In this document: positions 15,307 to 19,493 of the stretch, piece by piece | Position numbering within the stretch: the first letter of the stretch is position 1 | How the letters are laid out: each line of letters begins with the position of its first letter | Source of the DNA: Magnetococcales bacterium | Lineage (GTDB): Bacteria > Pseudomonadota > Magnetococcia > Magnetococcales > DC0425bin3 | Length of the DNA stretch: 64,000 nucleotides | Reading direction: 5' to 3' | NCBI GenBank assembly: GCA_015231175.1 | Contig: JADGBZ010000008.1 | Span: 1 to 64,000 of the forward strand | Position numbers and translations under genes: made by a program | Notes under the pieces: model-generated | Databases searched by the model: none | What the model saw: the letters and a program-made list of their open reading frames with translations, nothing else | Told to the model about the DNA's origin: nothing

Positions 15307-15456
15307 TGTAACCATTCAAAGCCCGGCAACCAATCGGGGTCCAGGGGGCTGGCTCCCTGGCGGGTCCAGGGCAGCGCCCTGGTGGGGTTCGGGGCGAAGC
15401 CCTGACAAAGGCTTTCATGTCCGAGCTTTTCCTGAAGGGGTGCCGAACGGTTGCAC
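15307..15456 (+). repeat. dispersed hairpin repeat, copy 7 (most complete)
   Basis: A forward copy with both ends: GTAACCATTCAAAGCCCGGC at the left, and GGGGTGCCGAACGGTTGCAC at the right, which is its imperfect inverted repeat. Between them lie the CCAGGGGGCTGGCTCCCTGG hairpin, CCAGGGCAGCGCCCTGG, GGGGTTCGGGGCGAAGCCC and AAAGGCTTTCATG. Confidence 0.9.
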
Positions 15457-15464
15457 GCTTTCAG

Positions 15465-16097
15465 CTATTGGGGGCTGGATGATCTCTGGTTACCAAGCAG
15501 CAATCCTTGCCGGTTGGCCTCCAGCCAGACGAAGGGTGATATTTTTTTCAGATGGTCGGATGTGAACTGTTGGTCGAAGTAGTCCTGGAAATGTTGGACG
15601 CGCACTCTCTTGATGTCGGGGTCGTTTAGCTTCAGGCGGGTAATGGTATCTTCCACTTGTTTGGTTTTTTGCGCGTCAAAATCCCTGGCAGGGTAAATGT
15701 GGCCTGTGATCAATTCAAGCTGAAACCAGCCATTGGTCACGGTGAACGGGTCGAGCACATCGTCAAACTTGTTCTTTCGGTTGTTCATGGCCTGGCAGGC
15801 CAGGCGATAATTGTCCCACTCGTAGGCCAACCTGGCTTGGTGTTGGGATTTGGCGACAAAGTGATCGACCGAGGCTACCCCCAGCACTCTCTCAAAATGG
15901 ATGGCAAGGTAGGCACAGATTCCCCCATAAGCCTTATAGAGATCACCCAGGGATGTGCGCCAGAAAGGGGCAAGTTCGCTCCCTTTTGAGGGAAGTTGAT
16001 CGACGGCGATGCCTTTTTTGCGCAGATCGGCAAGGCCTTTTTGCCGGACATCTTTGTCAAATCCGGCTGGTTCGGGCTGGAGCTGCACGCGGATCAT
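15465..16097 (-). CDS. PtuB-like HNH endonuclease
   Basis: The 210-residue protein starts at an ATG that overlaps the stop of the upstream ATPase-TIR gene as ATGA; a GTG three codons earlier is less likely. The HNH core spans about residues 61-108: GGICAYLAIHFERV, then SVDHFVAKS (Asp78-His79, catalytic pair), then EWDNYRLACQAMNNRKN. This matches the TIGR02646-type HNH proteins that accompany PtuA-like ATPases, although the second Cys of the usual CxxC is not present. LDPFTVTNGWFQLEL follows, as in the family. It is the likely nuclease effector of the two-gene system; a repeat element lies just downstream. Confidence 0.8.
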   Translation of the reverse strand: MIRVQLQPEPAGFDKDVRQKGLADLRKKGIAVDQLPSKGSELAPFWRTSLGDLYKAYGGICAYLAIHFERVLGVASVDHFVAKSQHQARLAYEWDNYRLACQAMNNRKNKFDDVLDPFTVTNGWFQLELITGHIYPARDFDAQKTKQVEDTITRLKLNDPDIKRVRVQHFQDYFDQQFTSDHLKKISPFVWLEANRQGLLLGNQRSSSPQ

Positions 16098-17872
16098 GTG
16101 TTCCACCCCTTTTTATCCATGACAAAGCGCCAGCGTGCCCAGAACGGATCGATATCTCCCAGGACCGATTTCAACTCCTCTTCAAGCATTTTGGCCTGGG
16201 CTGCATCAAACGCGGGTTCACTCATGAGCTTGCCGGCCTTCTCCAGGGCGATCTCAGCTTCCAGGGATCGACCGCTGCCCAGGTCAAAGGCCTCGCTGGT
16301 CAACCAATCGGTGACGTCACCGTGGCGATAGAAGGGTTGCTTGGCGATTTCGACGCGGGATGCCGGGATTCTTTTCTGGCCCGTCTGGCCCGTTGGAGAG
16401 AAGAATTTGAGAAGTTTTTGATATGCCGCTTCGTCTTCCTGACGGTAATCGAGAGCAAAATAATTTCTTAACTGAGTAGGAATCTCGCAATCATCCAGGA
16501 ATATAGGGATGAATCTCCTTGTTTTATTCATAGGATCGCGTGTTATGGCCGCACTATACTCTAATTGAATCCATTGGGAACGAATAGAATGACTAGATAA
16601 GACCACTATTGCCACTTTTGCATTGCGCAACCCCTCCATAACAGCTTCTGAAATGGAATCTCCAGCTCTCAATTTCCAAACATCAATCCAGACTTCCAAA
16701 CCATCGCTTTTGAGTCGTTCTGCTAACTTTAAAACCCTCGCTCTATCCTGATGGGCATAGCTGAAAAAAACATCGTACAGGTAGGTTTCATTCTGTTCTA
16801 AAGTGTCTGATGGGTCATCAGGCTGGTCTTGAAGAGGTGTTGTGCCATGGACCAGATCGATATCGAACCAGGCATCCTGGGCAGAGTCGAAAAAGGGTTC
16901 GACCGAGGCAAGAACCAAGGGGGCATGGGTCGCCACCATGAGTTGCACCCCGGCCTTAATTCCGCTCTCGTCTCCCAGCGATGCCAATGTTTCCATCAAT
17001 GCCCGGATGATGCTGCGTTGCCACCTGGGGTGTAGATGGGCCTCGATCTCGTCCACCAAAAAAACAACCTGCCGGGACGGGGAGATATCAAGGAGTTGAC
17101 AGGCGCTGAGGTGTTCCTGCCACACCCAGGTCAACAGGTAGCACAAGGTAATGATCCTGCGCATACCCGCCGAGGCATGCAGGATAGGCACATCCTGACC
17201 ATAGGGCATCCGCAGCGTGGGGATGTCGCGGGCATCATCTGGACTGATTCGGGTCAATGGACCTGGCGCGAGCACCTCCCGAGGTCCAGGCGAGAGCATG
17301 CTGAGTGCCCGGGTCAACATTGTAAGCGGAAGTTTATTCTCCTTGAACCAACCGGCCCAGTCGGCAACCAGCCCGTTGCACAACTGCCTGCCACTGCCCC
17401 CCTTCAAACCGTCCCAAAGCTCTGCCGGGGTAAAAACATAGGCAGGTTGCCGCTCCTGCGTGGCCACTTCACCCTTGGTTCGCCAGGAGTTGCGTGCCGA
17501 GTCCCACACGGAGAAACTGCCGTCTGCCTGGCTGTAGATGACCAGGCCGGAGATGGCAGGACGCGCCCCACGTCCCGCCCAGGTTTGTGCGGGGCGGTCA
17601 AATCGGCTGGTGTATGAGACGGGTTTGGTTTTGCCGGAAAGAGTAAACTCGATTGAGGCCTCACCCGTTCCATAAGGCCGTGCCATCATCCCGGTAGAGA
17701 GCTTGTTGTTGAGCTCGGCGGGCCAGGTGCGGGTCAAGGCCCACCAGACGATATCCAACAAAAAGGTTTTGCCCAACCCATTGTCACCGGTCAACAGGTT
17801 CAGACGCTCTCCAAACTGGAGAACCATGGAGGGGGCAGGCCCGACATTCTGCAACGTCAATCGCTTGAGCAT
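16094..17872 (-). CDS. PtuA/SMC-like ATPase with an internal TIR domain
   Basis: From MLKRLTLQNVGPAPSM the protein has 592 residues; 45 upstream codons are open but overlap the cytochrome gene. ATPase parts are Walker A GDNGLGKT (29-36), signature-like ASAGMRR (233-239), Walker B VVFLVDE (269-275) and the H-loop VATHAPLVLAS (313-323). A TIR domain occupies about 361-492: YLYDVFFSYAHQDRA, LEVWIDVWKL and WIQLE with Glu438 at the NADase-type W-x-x-x-E position. From about 505, VEIAKQPFYRHGDVTDWLTS and FDLGSGRSLEAE resume the ATPase C-terminal region typical of HNH-paired ATPases, so TIR is an insertion. The TIR DNA (16397-16792) is AT-richer than the flanks. No family member with this layout is known to me. 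Confidence 0.85.
   Translation of the reverse strand: MLKRLTLQNVGPAPSMVLQFGERLNLLTGDNGLGKTFLLDIVWWALTRTWPAELNNKLSTGMMARPYGTGEASIEFTLSGKTKPVSYTSRFDRPAQTWAGRGARPAISGLVIYSQADGSFSVWDSARNSWRTKGEVATQERQPAYVFTPAELWDGLKGGSGRQLCNGLVADWAGWFKENKLPLTMLTRALSMLSPGPREVLAPGPLTRISPDDARDIPTLRMPYGQDVPILHASAGMRRIITLCYLLTWVWQEHLSACQLLDISPSRQVVFLVDEIEAHLHPRWQRSIIRALMETLASLGDESGIKAGVQLMVATHAPLVLASVEPFFDSAQDAWFDIDLVHGTTPLQDQPDDPSDTLEQNETYLYDVFFSYAHQDRARVLKLAERLKSDGLEVWIDVWKLRAGDSISEAVMEGLRNAKVAIVVLSSHSIRSQWIQLEYSAAITRDPMNKTRRFIPIFLDDCEIPTQLRNYFALDYRQEDEAAYQKLLKFFSPTGQTGQKRIPASRVEIAKQPFYRHGDVTDWLTSEAFDLGSGRSLEAEIALEKAGKLMSEPAFDAAQAKMLEEELKSVLGDIDPFWARWRFVMDKKGWNT
16397..16792 (-). other. inserted TIR-domain segment of low GC content
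   Basis: This is the part of the ATPase gene that encodes the TIR fold. Hand counts give 24 and 22 G/C in the 60-base rows 16501-16560 and 16561-16620, against 32 and 43 in rows 17281-17340 and 17521-17580 of the ATPase part. The reading frame runs through without a stop. The change of composition supports domain acquisition by recombination. Confidence 0.65.
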
Positions 17873-19109: not shown

Positions 19110-19493
19110 TTTGAACCCCCGAATCTAACAGGTTCGTTGCCCCTCCTCCAAGACAAATTTTGCCACCAACACCCGATGGGTAGAGATCATTCATGACCCA
19201 TCCGGGAGGGGGGTCCGACCTGCCGGGGATGCAAGCGTCGCGGCAGGCTCATGGCGCGTTTTTTGGGTGGCTGCCGAACAGAGGGCATGGAGGAAAACTT
19301 GTTGCCTGACCTCTTCGTGTCGTACAACCATTCAGGGATATGAAAGCCTTTATCAGGGCTTCGCTCCGAACCCCACCAGGACGTCGTCCTGGACCTGCCA
19401 GGGAGCCAGCCCCCTGGACCCCGATGCGTGGTCGGGTGGTGAATTGGGACTGGTTACGGTCATATTTTGCTTTTGCATGGGAAAGATGTGGTC
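19110..19493. other. divergent intergenic region between cytochrome and TPR genes
   Basis: A 384-bp gap holds the promoters of both divergent genes. A copy of the dispersed repeat covers about 135 bp. I see no ORF, RNA gene or clear FNR-like site in the rest. Confidence 0.4.
19322..19457 (-). repeat. dispersed hairpin repeat, copy 8
   Basis: A reverse copy runs from GTACAACCATTCAGGG to GGTCGGGTGGTGAATTGGG and GGTTAC, with all hairpin modules. A few bases are inserted near the distal end. It ends about 36 bp before the start of the TPR protein gene. Confidence 0.85.

Follow-up and report, generated by a model that had tools for sequence, protein, structure and literature searches.

A TIR-bearing ptuA and a ptuB gene overlap in the window

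The window, i.e., the whole stretch of 64,000 nucleotides analyzed here, comes from a draft Magnetococcales genome and carries an overlapping pair of genes encoding a PtuA-type ATPase and a PtuB-type HNH protein (Table 1). The ptuA ATG begins at position 17872 and its stop codon occupies 16094-16096, while the ptuB ATG begins at 16097, so that the genes are joined by an ATGA; coordinates, strand, and joint were exact in an initial sequence-only reading of this DNA.

Table 1. Features of the ptuA-TIR/ptuB locus (positions in the window; residues numbered in the respective protein)
Feature	Position	Strand	Basis
ptuA-TIR gene	16094..17872	-	592 aa plus stop; PADLOC PtuA PDLC00307, E 6.6e-163, two stretches
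N-terminal PtuA ATPase piece with every ATPase motif (residues 1-345)	16838..17872	-	Profile domain 1, i-E 3.1e-158
Walker A GDNGLGKT, residues 29-36	17765..17788	-	G29, D30, N31, G34, K35 invariant in 44 relatives
Walker B VVFLVDE, residues 269-275	17048..17068	-	D274, E275 invariant in 44 relatives
Low-GC insert (residues 346-504)	16361..16837	-	Absent from all relatives examined; GC 0.43, GC3 0.40
TIR domain, residues 361-492	16397..16792	-	PF13676, E 5e-31; AbTIR 8g83, E 3.6e-14
WIQLE, a WxxxE motif, putative catalytic E438	16559..16573	-	Both W and E kept in all nine TIRs aligned
C-terminal PtuA piece that closes the beta-hairpin (residues 505-592)	16097..16360	-	Profile domain 2, i-E 1.5e-24
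ptuB, HNH protein, 210 aa	15465..16097	-	Overlaps ptuA by ATGA; PADLOC PtuB PDLC00348, E 1.7e-69
PtuB HNH core (C61, D78, H79, W94, N96, R98, N105, K108)	15774..15917	-	Alignment of 88 sequences

The ptuA product matches the PADLOC PtuA model with 540 bits, split over two stretches, and Pfam AAA_21 (PF13304) over residues 24-321. Walker A (K35), the signature HASAG (S234), Walker B, and the H-loop (H316) all lie N-terminal of residue 325, and the motifs are invariant in 44 relatives, bearing out the proposal of a full PtuA ATPase made from the sequence. A Foldseek search with the modeled protein returned the E. coli Septu PtuA chains 8eea, 8sux, and 8ee4 as first matches.

PtuB is covered over its whole length by the PADLOC PtuB model (231 bits), with matches to TIGR02646 and NF041761 that fall below cutoff. 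Seven of the core residues (C61, H79, W94, N96, R98, N105, and K108) are identical in 88/88 aligned sequences and D78 is kept in 86/88. Being full length and having all the family-invariant residues, PtuB is intact, in keeping with the downstream HNH nuclease and the Asp78/His79 pair foreseen earlier. Characterized PtuAB pairs vary in their target, which can be DNA or tRNA (PMC11555353, PMC13096335): phage DNA is nicked by the Septu system of E. coli ATCC 25922 (as cited in PMC11555353), and tRNA-Tyr is the target of retron-Eco7 PtuAB (PMC11555353) and of Septu EcB88 (PMC13096335). Defense by the latter requires the PtuA Walker residues K43/D316 as well as H75/N91 of PtuB (PMC13096335).

By its ATPase motifs and its adjacent PtuB HNH gene, the pair classifies as Septu type I and is predicted to protect against phage. 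It shares with that type the PADLOC matches of both proteins, the adjacent overlapping genes, and the full set of catalytic motifs, but differs in that the window PtuA bears a 159-residue, TIR-containing insert found in no sampled relative.

The TIR domain is inserted within PtuA

To delimit the insert, a PtuA profile was built from 43 relatives, leaving out the window protein (i-E values are given at a nominal Z of 1e6). Profile positions 1-342 match residues 1-345 and positions 340-425 match residues 505-590. Since the two pieces match contiguous profile positions, they form a single, continuous PtuA sequence broken only by the roughly 159 residues between them. In an AlphaFold model computed from an alignment of 44 PtuA sequences, pLDDT is mostly >90 in both pieces, and the insert is framed by strands 334-341 and 506-512, which in our reading of this model pair as a single beta-hairpin with the TIR at its tip. 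Residues 505-592 can also be aligned with the C terminus of retron Ec83 PtuA. Profile, model, and Ec83 alignment all place this region within PtuA and not outside the ATPase fold, and the view that the ATPase C terminus resumes after the TIR thus holds: residues 505-592 are the genuine PtuA C terminus, and the TIR is inserted, not appended. Both insert junctions are in frame and no stop codon occurs across the 477 bases. The loop at the insert site comprises 0 to 6 residues beyond the shortest form in about 95 relatives; because of this variation the hairpin loop is a permissive site, one that tolerates changes in length.

TIR domains are usually NAD+-destroying enzyme modules. Here, Pfam TIR_2 matches residues 368-488, and W434 and E438 align with the W-x3-E stretch of the NAD+ hydrolase AbTIR. 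The nearest solved TIR chains (7uwg, 7uxr, AbTIR 8g83, and 3h16) match over a 93-residue core with E values of 1e-13 to 2e-14; weaker matches were obtained with Pfam ThsB_TIR and NCBIfam Thoeris ThcB4. Two joint alignments (A2 and A5) were dropped for structure work as they misplaced the TIRs onto the ATPase. A second AlphaFold model, from a mixed alignment in which PtuA and TIR modules were both aligned (A6), was used for the TIR only: pLDDT is about 86 to 97, mostly >92, over residues 366-490, the remainder of this model being poor. The top 50 Foldseek matches of the A6 model were PtuA or other ABC-ATPase chains and included no TIR chains, so that the TIR assignment is based on the sequence profiles and the model.

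The internal TIR domain proposed at residues 361-492 is accordingly confirmed, within an insert that spans about 346-504 in its entirety, and it retains both the fold and the WxxxE glutamate, so that the objection of a TIR lacking the NAD-binding pocket did not materialize. Together with the NAD-hydrolase neighbors, the motif is what would be expected for an active NAD hydrolase, and NAD+ cleavage is a putative activity. With the bacterial TIR NADases listed above, the window TIR shares the fold, the WxxxE motif, and the 93-residue core, but the solved constructs are free-standing domains whereas this one is internal to an ABC-type ATPase. Overall, residues 1-345 and 505-592 of the ptuA product together form a Septu PtuA ATPase, and the TIR domain that separates them is intact.

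The fusion is seen once among PtuA relatives

We compared about 95 distinct PtuA proteins, duplicates having been removed by eye. The sample comprised the best 80 matches in genome contigs, which span Proteobacteria, Desulfobacterota, Chlorobi, Verrucomicrobia, Planctomycetes, Myxococcota, Spirochaetota, and others, plus the Magnetococcales copies and others from further groups. This comparison of homologues with and without residues 345-500, suggested in the sequence-only reading, found a TIR in the PtuA loop in none of the ~95 relatives. No second PtuA-TIR fusion was present among the best 80 genome-contig matches listed, in 48 genomes of the order and 399 of the phylum, in the phylum of G399 (395 genomes), the class of G400 (369), and the phylum of G402 (388), or in plasmid, phage, and IMG/VR collections; rarer copies may exist beyond the matches listed.

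Several candidates were discarded. A Calothrix plasmid match over residues 327-520 belonged to a separate protein and reflects only its similarity to TIR. Three apparent long inserts (L037, L047, and L061) proved to be PtuA proteins of normal length with extra genes upstream, and three further candidates (L035, L097, and L181) were rejected as insert carriers, their C termini being shortened or altered; no PtuB was found near the PtuA of L035 or L097. A different kind of add-on was observed at L034:3824-5656, where the PtuA ends in a tail made of AT-hook-like GRPRK motifs in repeated copies.

The literature searched, in which most subscription papers were unreadable, contained no description of a TIR within PtuA, in agreement with the earlier impression that the internal-TIR layout is an undescribed one. 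All of its parts are known; their combination in one polypeptide is, as far as could be checked and from one genome, new.

The insertion is recent

The TIR segment has a GC content of 0.41 (GC3, 0.38) compared to 0.59 and 0.57 (GC3, 0.70 and 0.69) for the flanking PtuA pieces, and a GC content this low occurs in only 0.4% of window pieces of the same size. This difference from the flanks identifies the TIR as a recent in-frame insertion into PtuA. A short tandem GGGCCAGAC/GGGCCAGAA lies at the right junction. The best TIR relative, encoded elsewhere in the same genome, is only about 46% identical, and no donor was therefore identified. This closest same-genome TIR (46 to 47%; L002:409-1881, contig C48) is at the C terminus of a protein whose N-terminal domain, named by eye, looks like the formylglycine-generating-enzyme (sulfatase-modifying-factor) type. 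Another TIR match in the same genome, L026:16-228 (contig C129), is a TIR fragment with an in-frame stop in the match and is apparently a remnant.

Surroundings and likeness to known systems

The upstream neighbor of ptuA encodes a multiheme cytochrome and the downstream neighbor of the pair is a CoA-ligase-like gene. Of the eight flanking genes scanned, three matched no Pfam family, and those identified are metabolic or encode cytochrome, TPR, or transglycosylase proteins. The pair stands by itself in surroundings that are largely metabolic. Retron type I-A (Septu type II) membership was rejected, no reverse transcriptase being found among the eight. These retrons (Ec78 and Ec83; reverse transcriptase plus PtuA and PtuB) have the ATPase/HNH pair in common with the window locus, and Ec83 PtuA possesses the C-terminal region and the hairpin that receives the TIR here; retron PtuA, however, has no TIR, and the flanking genes scanned in the window have no reverse transcriptase.

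Among the sampled loci, at least 21 have PtuAB next to a gene for a PglZ-like protein, a count that includes duplicates from one genome, in agreement with the OLD-ABC ATPase plus HNH dyads described within BREX operons (PMC12839542). The window locus itself was rejected as a member of BREX, with no PglZ or PglX beside the pair and metabolic, cytochrome, and TPR genes on its flanks. It also differs from those dyads in that its ATPase contains the TIR. In Desulfobulbus sp. Tol-SR (L047:3980-6854), by contrast, a separate 319-aa TIR gene lies directly 5' of ptuA-ptuB in a BREX-like operon (BREX gene names were assigned from reading the L047 and L037 neighbors by eye). In this single case, TIR and PtuAB are neighbors encoded by distinct genes, indicating that the two modules associate elsewhere; being in a defense operon, the Desulfobulbus TIR could be a chance neighbor.

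A candidate two-effector Septu complex

We lean toward the interpretation that the locus is a stand-alone (nonretron) Septu system in which the PtuA assembly would control both the HNH nuclease and the TIR NADase. The more specific proposition, that a single ABC-type ATPase complex fires two chemically distinct effectors together, an HNH nuclease in trans and a TIR NADase built into its own head, a state reached through recent TIR insertion into a permissive hairpin, we put forward more tentatively, as a possibility a little short of even.

Nucleotide-dependent changes in PtuA are taken to free the Septu nuclease. In the proposed scheme, the hairpin linking the ATPase head and the C-terminal helices acquired the TIR at its tip, and PtuA-TIR and PtuB would still assemble as a multimeric Septu complex. 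A phage signal would alter the nucleotide state or the assembly of PtuA and, as in Septu, release the PtuB nuclease; the same change in PtuA would bring the TIRs of neighboring subunits together, leading to NAD+ hydrolysis. The infected cell, depleted of nucleic acids (DNA or tRNA) and of NAD+, would then stop growing before phage is made. Septu PtuA and PtuB form a 6:2 complex (PMC12948488), induced proximity on a wheel-like receptor suffices to activate plant TIRs (PMC7414095), and the SPARTA TIR is switched on by oligomerization (PMC12948488); this stoichiometry and these modes of activation make a two-effector response the best reading, while the TIR could also clash with PtuA oligomerization or PtuB binding. 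The likeness to SPARTA and other oligomer-gated TIR effectors (PMC12948488) is functional, a sensor assembly turning on a TIR NADase; SPARTA has an Argonaute, absent from the window system, and no counterpart to the second (nuclease) effector.

The main rival to the two-effector reading is that the TIR is a passenger or disruptive insert, noncatalytic or wrecking Septu, and bound to be lost. The strongly deviant GC would have left little time for selection, the ptuAB locus is missing from a same-genus genome, and the fusion was seen once in ~95 relatives, so that conservation cannot support selection for the fused TIR. Such an insert would nevertheless have to be reconciled with in-frame junctions, 477 bases without a stop, catalytic residues that are intact in TIR, ATPase, and HNH alike, and a position exactly at the hairpin tip, all of which make this explanation rather unlikely.

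Signaling or sensing roles are less likely still. The weaker ThsB_TIR and ThcB4 matches and the several other TIR proteins encoded in the genome would fit a Thoeris-like role in which the TIR makes a signal nucleotide (a cADPR isomer or His-ADPR) that acts on an effector encoded at another site of the genome, but no ThsA-like effector was found among the eight flanking genes scanned and the nearest solved TIRs are NAD hydrolases, which renders this improbable. We give similarly little credence to a TIR serving as a sensor or adaptor that binds a phage protein or a cellular TIR protein, leaving the PtuAB nuclease as sole effector: Thoeris TIR systems sense phage capsids (PMC12578639) and other TIR proteins of the host genome are available as partners, yet retention of the WxxxE glutamate points more toward an enzyme and the TIR-less relatives presumably detect phage otherwise. 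An assembly or chimera artifact is highly improbable: despite a draft genome of 175 contigs and GC steps at the junctions, the locus lies inside an 85.7-kb contig and not at its end, with two in-frame junctions, a stop-free insert, and no close match to it elsewhere in the genome (best TIR, 46%).

If both effectors of the PtuA-TIR/PtuB complex are active, a single complex would hit two essential resources simultaneously and would be hard to evade by a single phage countermeasure. tRNA supply defeats some PtuAB systems, and an anti-NADase is another example of such a countermeasure. An active fusion would further offer a natural test of whether tethering to an assembling ATPase alone switches TIRs on, and it would document the grafting of an effector onto a defined surface loop shortly after it happened. 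PtuA heads would then be scaffolds for the grafting of new effectors.

Locus history and further ptuAB neighborhoods

The ptuAB pair is itself patchy in distribution. In the same-genus genome G001, the multiheme cytochrome and CoA-ligase-like genes are adjacent, about 0.1 kb apart, without ptuAB, and in the same-family genome G003, ptuAB and the cytochrome gene are on separate contigs. In the window, a pair of 109-nt inverted repeats, 86% complementary (15314-15422 and 19336-19444), flanks ptuB, ptuA, and the cytochrome gene. These repeats are members of a 120-nt dispersed family that is matched at least 52 times in the genome, and they may have helped rearrangement at the ptuAB locus. In two other genomic contexts (L037:3077-6957 and L061:3166-6850), ptuA-ptuB is directly preceded, in a BREX-like operon, by another ATPase/HNH-type pair that is distantly related to it.
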